Of a DNA stretch of 32,061 bases, positions 65 through 7,273 are shown piece by piece (the stretch's first letter is position 1; each line of letters opens with the position of its first letter). Position numbers and translations under genes: made by a program. This stretch comes from Alcaligenaceae bacterium (GTDB lineage Bacteria; Pseudomonadota; Gammaproteobacteria; Burkholderiales; Burkholderiaceae_B). The notes beneath the pieces were generated by a model. The model saw only the letters and a program-made list of their open reading frames with translations. It did not search any database and was not told the DNA's origin. Where the stretch lies: assembly GCA_030452305.1 (NCBI GenBank), contig JAKDMO010000007.1, positions 1 through 32,061 of the forward strand, read 5' to 3'.

Positions 65-793
65 ATGCGGAAACGAATCGCACTGACACCCGACGCGACA
101 CGCTGTTCCACCTGTATGCTCAATGCAATCTGCCTGCCCTTGGGCATGTCACGCAACGATGTGCTGGTTATGGACGAGCTGATCAAGGAACGTGTGCGCC
201 TGGCCAAGGGCGCCGCGCTCTACTCGCTGGGGGATCCGGTCGAGGCCATTTACGGCATACGCTACGGATCGCTGAAAACCCAGGTCCAGAACGCAAGCGG
301 GCAAATGCAGGTCACAGGCTTTCTGCTGCCAGGGGAAGTCGTCGGCCTGGACAGCCTCAGCGACGAGCGCCACGGCTCGCACGCCATCTCCCTCGAGGAC
401 TCTGAAGTCTGTGTGATTCACCTGGATGAAATGGACGAGCTCGCCCCGCGACTGCCTGTGCTGCAAACACAGTTGCGTCGGCTGATGGGCAAGGAAATCA
501 CCCGATCACACCAGTTGGTGATGACGCTGGGCAGCCTGCGATCCGAACAGCGCCTGGCGGCGTTTCTGCTGAATCTGTCGCAACGGCTGAGCACGCTGGG
601 CTATTCGCCCCACGAATTCCTGCTGCGCATGAGCCGCCAGGAAATCGGAAATTTCCTCGGGCTGACGCTGGAAACCGTCAGCCGTCTGTTTTCACGTTTC
701 GCACGCGACGGGCTGATCCGAGTCCAGCAGCGCGAGGTCCAAATCCTGGACATGGACGCGCTACGGGTTCTGTCGGGCACCGACTGCGGCTGA
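65..793 (+). CDS. fnr: FNR/CRP-family oxygen-responsive transcriptional regulator
   Basis: N-terminal CSTCMLNAIC cysteine cluster plus a later Cys in SEVCVIH fits the 4Cys [4Fe-4S] FNR layout; C-terminal HTH SRQEIGNFLGLTLETVSRLFSRF has the FNR-type E..SR recognition helix. Confidence 0.93.
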   Translation: MRKRIALTPDATRCSTCMLNAICLPLGMSRNDVLVMDELIKERVRLAKGAALYSLGDPVEAIYGIRYGSLKTQVQNASGQMQVTGFLLPGEVVGLDSLSDERHGSHAISLEDSEVCVIHLDEMDELAPRLPVLQTQLRRLMGKEITRSHQLVMTLGSLRSEQRLAAFLLNLSQRLSTLGYSPHEFLLRMSRQEIGNFLGLTLETVSRLFSRFARDGLIRVQQREVQILDMDALRVLSGTDCG

Positions 794-817: not shown

Positions 818-1072
818 CTAATGACTCATCGGCTCGTCGAACTCATCGAGCACCACACCGCGCGGCGCCATGGCGAGGCTAAGCGCGCTCGATCCCGCCG
901 CCATCGCCCAGAACAAAAAGAAACCCAGCGCGTAGACCAGTTGCCGGCTGCCGCGCAGATGGTCCAAGAACAGCACATCCTGCGGATCCACCAGGGCAAA
1001 GACAATTCCACTGGTCACACCCGCCACCAGAAACGATGGCCACAGGATCCACATCAGTTGACGAGCTTTCAT
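818..1072 (-). CDS. Small (84 aa) two-TM hypothetical membrane protein at the end of the cco operon
   Basis: Internal ATG at 1072 in the ORF track gives MKARQLMWILWPSFLVAGVTSGIVFALVDP...; two hydrophobic segments; co-directional with the cco genes. Confidence 0.65.
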   Translation of the reverse strand: MKARQLMWILWPSFLVAGVTSGIVFALVDPQDVLFLDHLRGSRQLVYALGFFLFWAMAAGSSALSLAMAPRGVVLDEFDEPMSH

Positions 1073-1098
1073 TCTGAAACTCCCTCTTTCTGGTCGGC

Positions 1099-1326
1099 TC
1101 AGCGCGCCGATTGTACCGGTGCGGGCCGGCTGACATGCAAGCCGTTCTTGACCCCACCGTCCTGTATGGCCTGGTCGCCGTAGCTTTGAAACGCCAGTAC
1201 GATGGTCACGACGCACCCGACCACTGCCACAGCCGGCCCCAGCATCAGCAGCCACGGCCAGGGCTCGCGCCACCAGGGCCGCTTCGACTGGCGTGCTTCA
1301 CATGATTCGGGCAAATCGCTTTTCAT
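1099..1326 (-). CDS. Short FixH-like protein (75 aa)
   Basis: RPWWREPWPWLLMLGPAVAVVGCVVTIVLAFQSYGDQAIQDGGVKNGLHVSR resembles the FixH N-terminal TM region; directly downstream of ccoG. Confidence 0.7.
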   Translation of the reverse strand: MKSDLPESCEARQSKRPWWREPWPWLLMLGPAVAVVGCVVTIVLAFQSYGDQAIQDGGVKNGLHVSRPAPVQSAR

Positions 1327-2864: not shown

Positions 2865-3764
2865 TTAGTTCGACTGACCCCAAACCCAGGCGGTCAGCAG
2901 CCGGATCTGCTCGGGGGTCAGGATATGCTCCTGACCAGGCATCCGATTGTCGCGACCTTCCAGAATCGTCTCGATGATGGTCGCCGCCGAGCTGCCATAC
3001 AGCCAGATGTCATCGCTCAGGTTCGGTGCCCCAAGTGCCGTGTTTCCTTTCCCTTCCGCGCCGTGACAGGCCACGCAAAAGGTATCGAAACCGCGCTTGC
3101 CGGGCACGATCCGCAAGGGGTCGTGGGCCAAGCCGGACAGCGAGCGGACATACTGGGCGATATCCGAGGCCTGAGCGGGCTTGATGGCGGCCTTCCATGG
3201 CGGCATCATGCCGTGACGCCCCTTGGTGATGGTCTGCATGATCTGCTCGGGCTCGCCCCCCCACAGCCAGTCCGTATCGGTCAGGTTGGGAAAGGTCCGC
3301 CCGCCCTTGGCATCGGATCCGTGGCACTGGGCGCAGTTATTCAGAAACAGACGCTGGCCGATTTCACGGGCTTCCTGATCAGCGGCGATATCAGGAATCG
3401 GCATGGCCTGGAAACGCTCGTAGACCGGCTTGATCCGTTCGTTGAACGCCTGCTGTTGCTGCTGTAGCTGTTTGCCCGCCGTGAAACCGAGTTGGCCCTC
3501 GTAGGAGCCCAAGCCCGGGTACAGCACCAGATACCCCAGCGCAACAATGCACAGGCCCAGATACATGACTGTCCACCAGCGCGGCACGGGATTGTTGAGC
3601 TCGGTCAGGTCGCCGTCCCATACGTGGCCGGTGTTCTCGACGATCTCGACATCCTTTTTCAGCCAGGCGCGTTGCGAAAACAATAGATAGATGCACCAGG
3701 CAATCCCGCCCAGCGAGATCACCGCAATATAGATGCTCCAGAAACCGCTGAAAAAATCACTCAT
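2865..3764 (-). CDS. ccoP: cbb3-type cytochrome c oxidase subunit III, diheme
   Basis: Two CxxCH heme motifs (CAQCH, CVACH); N-terminal TM and HVWDGDLTELNNPVPRWW typical of CcoP. Confidence 0.96.
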   Translation of the reverse strand: MSDFFSGFWSIYIAVISLGGIAWCIYLLFSQRAWLKKDVEIVENTGHVWDGDLTELNNPVPRWWTVMYLGLCIVALGYLVLYPGLGSYEGQLGFTAGKQLQQQQQAFNERIKPVYERFQAMPIPDIAADQEAREIGQRLFLNNCAQCHGSDAKGGRTFPNLTDTDWLWGGEPEQIMQTITKGRHGMMPPWKAAIKPAQASDIAQYVRSLSGLAHDPLRIVPGKRGFDTFCVACHGAEGKGNTALGAPNLSDDIWLYGSSAATIIETILEGRDNRMPGQEHILTPEQIRLLTAWVWGQSN

Positions 3765-3933
3765 GAGAGCCCCCGGTGTTCGTATCCTCGTGAAATTCCT
3801 CCGACAGTGCGAAAGGCAGCATCGATGCCTGGCGATTGGCCTCGGCGCGGCCGGCCGACCATGCCCACCACACGATCCCCAGGAAGGTCGCCATTCCCAG
3901 CACCGTCATCACTCCGTTGATTATGCCGACCAT
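3757..3933 (-). CDS. ccoQ: cbb3-type oxidase subunit IV (CcoQ)
   Basis: Internal start MVGIINGVMTVLGMATFLGIVWWAWSAGRAEAN; single TM; position between ccoO and ccoP. Confidence 0.85.
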   Translation of the reverse strand: MVGIINGVMTVLGMATFLGIVWWAWSAGRAEANRQASMLPFALSEEFHEDTNTGGSHE

Positions 3934-3934
3934 G

Positions 3935-4594
3935 TCAGTGACTCCCTGCTTCCATTGCCGCGCGGGCCGCATCGCGCCCACCCACACCCAGGCCCTGCAG
4001 ATACGCGATGATCGCGTCTTCCTCGGTCTTGCCCTTCAACTGCCCGGGCGCCTGTCCGATCTGCTCGTCGGTATAGGGCACGCCCAGTGTGCGCAGCGCC
4101 CGCATCCGAACCCGTACATTCACATCATCGACGGCATTGTGCTGCAGCCAGGGATACGAAGGCATATTCGATTCCTGCACGACGTCACGCGGATCGCGCA
4201 GGTGGATGCGATGCCACTCGTCGGAGTAGCGCCCCCCCACACGCGCCAGGTCCGGACCTGTGCGCTTGGATCCCCATAGGAAGGGATGGTCGTACATGGA
4301 TTCCGCCGCGATTGAATACGGCCCATAGCGCTGGACTTCGGACTGCAGCATGCGGATCTGTTGTGAATGGCAGCCGACACATCCCTCGCGGATGTAGACA
4401 TCGCGCCCCACCAGGCTGAGCGCCTCGTACGGACGTACGCCTTCCACCGGGGTCGTCGTGGAGTGCTGGAAGAACAGCGGAATGATCTGCACCAGGCCCG
4501 AGACCGAAACCACCAGGATGCTAAAGAAAATCAGCCATCCGACATTGCGTTCCAGCAGTTCATGAGAGAAGCGCTTCTTTTTCGTACTGGTCAT
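3935..4594 (-). CDS. ccoO: cbb3-type cytochrome c oxidase subunit II, monoheme
   Basis: [32 protein letters not shown] and [13 protein letters not shown] heme motif. Confidence 0.96.
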
Positions 4595-4606: not shown

Positions 4607-6088
4607 TTATGCCATGGCAGGCGAAACAGATACCGGACTGTGGACATCATCCGCAGTCCCCAACGGCACCGGCGGGTTGACCCTGGCTTGGCCCTTGACC
4701 GTGATCCAGGTGTTCCAGGCCATGACGACCATTCCGGCCAGGAAAAACAGGCCGCCAATCATGCGGATGGTGTAGAACGGATAAGTCGATTTCACGACCT
4801 CGGCAAAGCTGTACATCAAGGTGCCATCGGCGGCGGTGGCACGCCACATCAGACCCTGCATCACCCCGGCAATCCACATCGAGCTGATGTAGAGCACCAC
4901 GCCCAGCGTTGCCAGCCAGAAATGCAGGCTGATCAAATCGACGCTCGCCATGCTTTTGCGACCGTACAGGCGGGGAATCAGGTAGTACAACGAGCCGAAG
5001 GTAATCATCGCCACCCAGCCCAGCGCGCCGACGTGCACGTGACCCACCGTCCAGTCGGTGTAGTGCGACAAGGCGTTGACGGTGCGGATCGACATCATCG
5101 AGCCCTCGAAGGTCGCCATGCCATAGAAGGACAGCGCCACCACGAGGAACTTCAGGATCGGATCGGTGCGCAGCTTGTGCCAGGCGCCCGATACCGTCAT
5201 GATTCCGTTGATCATGCCACCCCAGGACGGCGCCAGCAGAATCAGCGAAAAGGCCATGCCCAGCGACTGGGTCCAGTCGGGCAGCGAGGTATACAGCAGG
5301 TGGTGCGGCCCCGCCCACATATACGTGAATGCCAGCGCCCAAAAGTGCACAATCGACAGGCGATAGGAATAGATGGGCCGCCCGGCCTGCTTGGGCACAA
5401 AGTAGTACATCATCCCCAGGAAGCTGGTGGTCAGGAAAAAACCCACCGCGTTATGGCCATACCACCACTGCACCATGGCGTCCTGTACCCCGCCGTACAC
5501 CGAGTACGATTTCCAGAAGCTGACGGGCAGTTCAAGGTTATTGAAAATATGCAGGATGGCGATGGTGAGGATGTAGGATCCAAAAAACCAGTTGGCCACA
5601 TAGATGTGCTTGCCCCGGCGCTTGGCAATCGTTCCAAAGAACACGACTGCGTACGCCACCCACACCAGTGTGATCAGGATGTCGATCGGCCACTCGAGTT
5701 CGGCGTATTCCTTGGTGCTGGTGTAGCCCAGCGGCAAAGTGATCACCGCGGCCACGATCACCACCTGCCAGCCCCAGAACGTGAAGGCCGCAAGCTTGTC
5801 GGAAAACAGGCGTGTCTGACAGGTGCGCTGCACGACGTAGTAAGATGTGGCAAACAGGCCGCTGCCGCCGAAGGCAAAAATCACGGCATTGGTATGCAAA
5901 GGCCGCAGGCGGCCATAGCTGAGCCACGGAATATCAAAATTGAGGCCCGGCCAAATCAACTGCGAAGCAATCAGTACGCCCACAGCCATTCCGACGACCC
6001 CCCAGATGATGGTCGCGATTGTGAACTGCCTGACTACCCCGTAGTTGAAGGTTTCCACCGGTGCCCCGACCGTGTCGGACATGCCCAT
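4607..6088 (-). CDS. ccoN: cbb3-type cytochrome c oxidase subunit I
   Basis: Heme-copper oxidase subunit I features: [78 protein letters not shown]. Confidence 0.97.
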
Positions 6089-6124: not shown

Positions 6125-6274
6125 CTAACAATGTGAATCGTCGTCATCCAGGATGGCCGTGGCTGCGTCCTGGGTGTCGTCGAACTGGCCGGCGAATATC
6201 GCCCACCAGAATGCTGCGCCGATTGCCAGCACAAACATCAGTGATATGGGCAACAGCAAAAAAAGAATATCCAT
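6125..6274 (-). CDS. ccoS: cbb3-type oxidase assembly protein CcoS
   Basis: Internal start MDILFLLLPISLMFVLAIGAAFWWAIFAGQFDDTQDAATAILDDD; CcoS-like FDD...IL motif; just upstream of ccoN. Confidence 0.9.
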   Translation of the reverse strand: MDILFLLLPISLMFVLAIGAAFWWAIFAGQFDDTQDAATAILDDDDSHC

Positions 6275-6284
6275 GGCGCTGCTC

Positions 6285-7238
6285 CTAGGCCGCCTGGCCG
6301 TACCAGACCGTGTGCTTGGGCGCCAAGGCCTGGCGGTACAGGCGCCACGCGTTGGCGGCAACCGCCAGGGATGACATCAACATGGTGATCGCGGCCAGCC
6401 AGGGCTGCACCCAGCCGAAGGCGGCCAGGGGCGTCATCAGGATGTGCCAGGCGAGCGATCCGTAGAGGTTCTGCCGGGCGACCCGGGCCATCTGCGCATC
6501 CAGCAGCAAGGCCTCGGCGCGCCCAAGTGCCGGCAGGCGCAGTTGCACAGCACGCCGTGCCGCCACTGCCGTCGGGACGGACATCGACATCGCGCAAGGG
6601 CAGCTCATGACCAGCAGTGCCACCGTCACGGCAGCCGCACGATCAGGCGCGGCACCCAACCAATACAGGCCCACGACCGCAGCCAGCGCAAGCTGTATCA
6701 GCACGAACCAGAACGCCAACCGATTGGCCGATGCAAACAACGCTGTGGTATCCGTGCTCATGCCCAGCAGTGGCCCATCGACCGCCTGGCGCGCACAAAG
6801 CTCCAGGTAACGCGCCGTCAGCAGGAAGGCGACAAACATCGTCACGGAATCGAAATACACCTCGCCCGACGCACGCCAGGTACTGATCACACTAGGCAGG
6901 AAGGCCGCAGCAATACCCAGGGCGACCGGTACGTCCATCCCGACTCGCAGGCGCAGCAGGCAGCGCCAGGCACCGCGCCAGACCGGCCAGGCACAGTACA
7001 GGACGACAGGCACCGTCAGTATCAGGCTGATCCAGTTCATCAGAATGATCGCCTGGTCCAGCGAGGCCTGGGATTCAGGGCCTCGTGCGCCCGAGCGCAA
7101 ATAGCCCGGAAACGCGAACATCATGACCTGCATCATGCCCAGCCACGCCAGCCCGCAACGCGCCAGCATGTGTCGGCGCGCACGGCGAGCGGCCTCGGGC
7201 AACTGGGGCGGAGGGCTGAATATGGACAATTTGCGCAT
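6285..7238 (-). CDS. CcoI/CopA-like P1B-ATPase membrane domain only; no HMA, actuator, or P/N domains
   Basis: LGMMQVMMFAFPGYL, MDVPVALGI, YFDSVTMFVAFLLTARYLE, VMSCPCAMSMSVPTAVA (CPC motif) and C-terminal ARQNLYGSLAWHILMTPLAAFGWVQPWLAAITMLMSSLAVAANAWRL match P1B-ATPase TM segments; no TGES and no DKTGT. Start could be GTG 7247 or ATG 7238. Confidence 0.85.
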   Translation of the reverse strand: MRKLSIFSPPPQLPEAARRARRHMLARCGLAWLGMMQVMMFAFPGYLRSGARGPESQASLDQAIILMNWISLILTVPVVLYCAWPVWRGAWRCLLRLRVGMDVPVALGIAAAFLPSVISTWRASGEVYFDSVTMFVAFLLTARYLELCARQAVDGPLLGMSTDTTALFASANRLAFWFVLIQLALAAVVGLYWLGAAPDRAAAVTVALLVMSCPCAMSMSVPTAVAARRAVQLRLPALGRAEALLLDAQMARVARQNLYGSLAWHILMTPLAAFGWVQPWLAAITMLMSSLAVAANAWRLYRQALAPKHTVWYGQAA

Positions 7239-7273
7239 GACCGGCACTATAGAGAAACCACACGCGCCTCATA

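Follow-up and report, generated by a model that had tools for sequence, protein, structure and literature searches.

An ATPase-less CcoI membrane core in the cbb3 oxidase clusters of Alcaligenaceae

Results

We analysed a stretch of 32,061 nucleotides from an Alcaligenaceae bacterium (contig JAKDMO010000007.1), referred to below as the window. Its minus strand carries a cbb3 oxidase cluster in the order FNR box, short ccoI, ccoS, ccoN, ccoO, ccoQ, ccoP and ccoG, and a gene of the fnr type follows at the far end (Table 1). A preliminary description of this DNA had placed a continuous frame of 317–320 codons first in the cluster, and the ORF listing, in which the frame lies ahead of ccoS-ccoNOQP-ccoG, bears this out. 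The frame is uninterrupted over positions 6285–7247 (minus strand) and could start at a GTG at 7247 (320 aa) or at an ATG at 7238 (317 aa). We favour the ATG as the likely start because of the conserved SIFS block and the spacing from the FNR box: the closest in-frame start codon ahead of the SIFS block lies 34–38 nt beyond the end of the box in 62 of 68 related loci, and the ATG of the window lies 35 nt from the end of its box. Of 92 related loci, 65 likewise have the pattern TTGA-N6-TCAA upstream. FNR usually occupies position −41.5; if it does so here, the transcript would begin approximately at the start codon of the short ccoI, yielding a leaderless or nearly leaderless mRNA. The gene of the Fnr-family regulator (65–793, plus strand; PRK11161, 1.7e-64, slightly below the cut-off) stands at the opposite end of the cluster and faces it. 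Between this gene and ccoG there is a 151-aa ORF (818–1273, minus strand) with hydrophobic stretches and no NCBIfam match.

Table 1. Features of the cbb3 cluster and of the short ccoI in the window.
Feature	Position	Strand	Basis
Short ccoI, ATPase-less CcoI membrane core, 317 aa	6285–7238	−	Profile matches, alignment, tree, AlphaFold2
Short linker where the A-domain would be	6729–6785	−	Alignment with full-length CcoI
Short linker where the P- and N-domains would be	6480–6542 (bounds approximate)	−	Alignment with full-length CcoI
CPC motif C216-P217-C218, TM-MBS1	6594–6602	−	Invariant in 88/88 short proteins, also in full-length CcoI
W267-H268 replacing Tyr-Asn of Cu+ pumps, TM5	6444–6449	−	W in 92%, H in 99% of short proteins
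M289 and S293, Met-Ser of TM-MBS2, last helix	6369–6383	−	M in 99%, S in 95% of short proteins
FNR-type box TTGAT-N4-ATCAA	7274–7287		Sequence
ccoS	6125–6274	−	TIGR00847, 4.4e-16
ccoN	4607–6088	−	TIGR00780, 2.3e-228
ccoO	3935–4594	−	TIGR00781, 5e-83
Probable ccoQ	3757–3933	−	Position between ccoO and ccoP; no family match
ccoP	2865–3764	−	TIGR00782, 8e-78
ccoG, cupric reductase family, start codon unsettled	1348–2883	−	TIGR02745, 2.6e-147

The short CcoI has lost the ATPase machinery. Its matches to P1B-1 ATPase models are confined to their transmembrane parts (TIGR01511, 1.9e-16; TIGR01525, 1.3e-11), and CopA structures align to it as three blocks, in order. The 126–128 residues of the A-domain region of full-length CcoI are reduced to 15–27 in the short proteins (most commonly 21, with one row of 37), the 266–296 residues of the P- and N-domains are mostly reduced to 23, and the N-terminal (metal-binding) domain is missing. 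The TGE motif of the A-domain is lacking in the short protein, and the DKTGT and GDGxND motifs of the P-domain, found in full-length CcoI, are missing from the ORF. An AlphaFold2 model built from 40 family members has eight transmembrane helices (pLDDT 89.2, pTM 0.83), the sixth of which carries the CPC motif. The top fold matches of the model are Cu-ATPases, with global TM-scores of 0.46–0.56 (by query length); scores this low support kinship, not close superposition. The profiles, the CopA structures, the model and the alignment with full-length CcoI together uphold what had been proposed from the sequence of this one gene: about eight P1B-type segments kept in order with CPC, some 20 residues in place of the A-domain, some 25 in place of the P- and N-domains, and no N-terminal HMA domain.

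An alignment of 88 short proteins with 20 full-length CcoI was used to follow the residues of the metal path. In the CcoI of R. capsulatus, TM-MBS1 is formed by CPC and TM-MBS2 by Asn-Met-Ser (PMC8475189). The short CcoI has the Met-x3-Ser of the last helix; among the 88 short proteins M104 is invariant and E149 is found in 92%. The Tyr-Asn pair of TM5, each residue of which is present in 100% of the full-length proteins (n=20), is replaced by Trp-His in nearly all short relatives, a change that the preliminary description had overlooked. Given the published assignment of Asn-Met-Ser, TM-MBS2 of the short proteins now reads His-Met-Ser. Eleven positions, plus one in an inserted column, are near-invariant in the short proteins with a residue differing from the full-length consensus; the new invariant positions include W35, N71, W90 and Q185. 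A further 29 positions that are near-invariant in full-length CcoI are lost, and constraint is relaxed where the domains join. Judged from the alignment, these changes look like re-specialisation rather than drift. Binding of Cu(I) by the short protein is inferred from ligand conservation only, in the absence of binding data, and the conservation of CPC by itself cannot separate Cu binding from a structural role.

Relatives of the same length occur across the Alcaligenaceae, in Castellaniella (the nearest named genus), Pusillimonas, Achromobacter, Bordetella, Advenella, Oligella, Pelistega and Taylorella. We surveyed 151 genomes of the family, at least 90% complete and sampled at one genome per species, and found a CcoI match in 114: by an approximate hand count 105 are short, including one that is broken and one truncated at a contig end, and nine are full-length. 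CcoN is likewise found in 114 genomes, both proteins in 112 and neither in 35 (Fisher p 2e-29, uncorrected for relatedness). Among the four genomes with only one of the two, contig ends account for three (G123, G131, G174) and very likely for the fourth (G091, where the match begins at base 3). The short ccoI adjoins ccoN in 89 of 92 loci. The usual order is co-directional; in one genome (L159, G105) the two genes are divergent and about 150 bp apart. Beyond the Alcaligenaceae, no short form was seen among the matches listed (to about 5e-39) in 399 order-level genomes, leaving aside a few frames of under 480 aa on small contigs.

In a maximum-likelihood tree of the shared transmembrane columns, the 31 short proteins included form one clade (support 100/100, stem 0.87) within the full-length CcoI of Burkholderiales, near Cupriavidus and Ralstonia. 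The full-length CcoI of the nine family genomes (L145–L153) fall outside this clade and branch elsewhere, which suggests replacement or another origin, as far as a tree can tell. One genus (g27) holds both states, short and full-length, in different species. Nei–Gojobori counts give dN/dS values of 0.06–0.29 among the 60 closest pairs listed (dS 0.16–0.51), except for one of 0.016, and the value for the short ccoI exceeds that for ccoN in every pair in which both were measured. By these estimates the short ccoI is under purifying selection. Apparent internal stops in two genomes (G132, G167) were rejected: in G132 the stop precedes the start codon, and both loci have an intact ORF with CPC. 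In a genome that is probably Bordetella pertussis (G118; L154, 1943–4110), the short ccoI is split by an insertion of about 1 kb whose opposite strand carries a transposase-like ORF. The ccoN of this genome also carries a stop, and B. pertussis ccoN has been reported broken (PMC11257404). The joint breakage fits a cbb3-linked function.

Separately encoded A-, P- or N-domains were not found in five genomes searched with TIGR01494, which recovered complete P-type ATPases and the short form but nothing else. Nor was a full-length CcoI seen elsewhere in the genome of the window, whose further P1B proteins, as far as they were included in the tree, lie outside the CcoI clade; the same holds for a second protein of 769 aa in G155, which had given the appearance of a double. 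Three genomes that seemed to be without any Cu+ ATPase (G064, G094, G105) have complete CopA-type proteins that the search had split into weak matches. Those genomes with the short form that were studied in detail have a CopA-clade ATPase; G172, a 92% complete MAG, gave no CopA-type match. The single catalytic P-type ATPase found in each of G032, G089 and G023 is of CopA type, and the tree places the proteins of G032 and G023 apart from the CcoI clade.

The search for oxygen reductases in two of these genomes, G032 and G089, turned up CcoN as the sole member of the COX1 family and no bd oxidase. Both probably belong to Taylorella, an inference drawn from the 79.5% identity of the short CcoI of G032 to that of Taylorella asinigenitalis. 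According to the published genomes, cbb3 is the one terminal oxidase of Taylorella, for which a dependence on oxidative phosphorylation has been reported (PMC3250509). In G023 and G112, too, no bd oxidase was found, and CcoN is accompanied only by a COX1-family protein of 754–755 aa resembling, from its sequence, a quinol-type NO reductase. In these genomes cbb3 is thus probably assembled with the short protein as the only CcoI.

Discussion

The requirement of cbb3 for CcoI is ascribed to Cu(I) pumping. The short form shares phylogeny, operon, eight transmembrane helices and the CPC and Met-Ser sites with CcoI/FixI/CopA2, the Cu+-exporting P1B-1 ATPase of cbb3 maturation; in contrast to it, the short form lacks the A-, P-, N- and N-terminal metal-binding domains, has Trp-His in TM5 and cannot hydrolyse ATP. 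The membrane-core fold is also common to CopA/CopA1, the Cu+ detoxification ATPase that provides the best PDB matches, but CopA is a complete enzyme of a separate clade with no tie to cbb3. Like the non-pump assembly factors CcoS and CcoH, the short CcoI is a membrane protein of the cluster, presumably kept for assembly, yet it is unrelated to them in sequence, descends from a pump and keeps the Cu path.

We lean, by a modest degree, towards the short CcoI being a pseudo-ATPase that acts as a non-pumping, cbb3-specific maturation factor; the hand-over of Cu(I) is inferred, with no experiment on any short protein. The long conservation of the core, even where cbb3 is the sole oxidase, makes it probable that it does a pump-free job in copper loading. 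Support for a role in cbb3 maturation comes only from co-occurrence, the operon and joint decay, and a requirement for cbb3 activity is inferred. Since the ATP motor is gone from the short lineage, either CopA must export the Cu(I) or a periplasmic SenC/PCuAC pool must make such export unnecessary. The CPC-Met-Ser site would hold Cu(I) from either source inside the membrane, with H268 as a possible extra ligand making it a holding site (its orientation toward the CPC site is not established). The protein, perhaps docked with CcoN, CcoS or SenC, would then pass the ion to apo-CcoN to form CuB. That a transport domain has thereby become an intramembrane Cu(I) chaperone, with its site remade by the change of Asn to His, and that CuB is filled family-wide without a dedicated ATP-driven pump, we put forward only tentatively, as a possibility about which we remain more doubtful than confident. 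In R. capsulatus the CPC site of CcoI is indispensable even with added Cu, and CcoI works together with SenC (PMC8475189). Two findings in that organism count against the hand-over reading: CcoI moves Cu(I) only with ATP hydrolysis (PMC8475189), and cbb3 requires CcoI but can do without CopA (PMC8456105).

Other readings of the conserved core have to be weighed. The A-, P- and N-domains of P-type ATPases act on the helices of their own chain, which makes it rather unlikely that the short CcoI pairs in trans with a full-length CopA, taking its ATP drive from the partner and steering the exported Cu to cbb3. The relaxed junction residues and G172, incomplete as that genome is, also speak against such a hybrid pump; it draws support from the CopA-clade ATPases of the closely examined genomes, sole catalytic P-type ATPases in three of them, and from the dimer-consistent size at which R. 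capsulatus CcoI runs (PMC8475189). The new invariant aromatic and polar residues could be contact surfaces of a metal-free scaffold that only stabilises CcoN or CcoS in assembly and keeps CPC for helix geometry. We consider this improbable, as the whole set of CPC, Met and Ser ligands stays near-invariant next to pump residues that drift. The entry and the path have also retained their residues (M104, E149, CPC, M289, S293), as would suit a passive channel or carrier whose helices conduct Cu(I) without ATP, but passive export would run against the membrane potential and the very low level of free Cu in the cytosol, and the His in place of Asn could, by inference, trap Cu instead of passing it. 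Import remains possible, with no data, and we regard the passive reading as improbable too.

Large domain losses and the gene broken by insertion in the probable B. pertussis genome might point to a decaying relic, or the architecture to an assembly artefact. This is scarcely credible: the same architecture is found intact across many independent genomes of the family, in one old clade with low dN/dS, and the loss of the gene together with ccoN agrees with a role linked to cbb3. The preliminary description had argued that the excision was kept by selection for an ATP-independent role, and had named what would overturn it. An assembly deletion fails in view of dozens of independent genomes, relaxed selection with full-length orthologues in close relatives fails with relatives that are short and dN/dS far below 1, and catalytic domains as separate ORFs are absent from the five genomes tested. 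The argument is thus supported, and the type of role, be it chaperone, partner or channel, is still an inference.

If the reading as a pump-free maturation factor holds, the short CcoI would be a long-conserved pseudo-enzyme among P-type ATPases. We found no description of such a protein, of a truncated CcoI or of a short Alcaligenaceae CcoI in the open-licence literature searched, and an earlier account elsewhere is not excluded. The Alcaligenaceae offer a natural experiment in which the membrane core of a pump is separated from its motor, including organisms apparently living on cbb3 alone, and the role of the pump core in CuB insertion becomes directly testable.

The SenC and PCuAC families are both present in all 16 genomes tested for them. 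In several small genomes copA lies near senC- or PCuAC-type genes. At four loci (L160, L161, L162, L164) it is clustered with SenC-type genes and a nitrite reductase gene that appears NirK-like by eye, joined at L164 by a PCuAC-type gene; in the Taylorella-like genomes the NirK-like gene, again identified by eye, adjoins copA.
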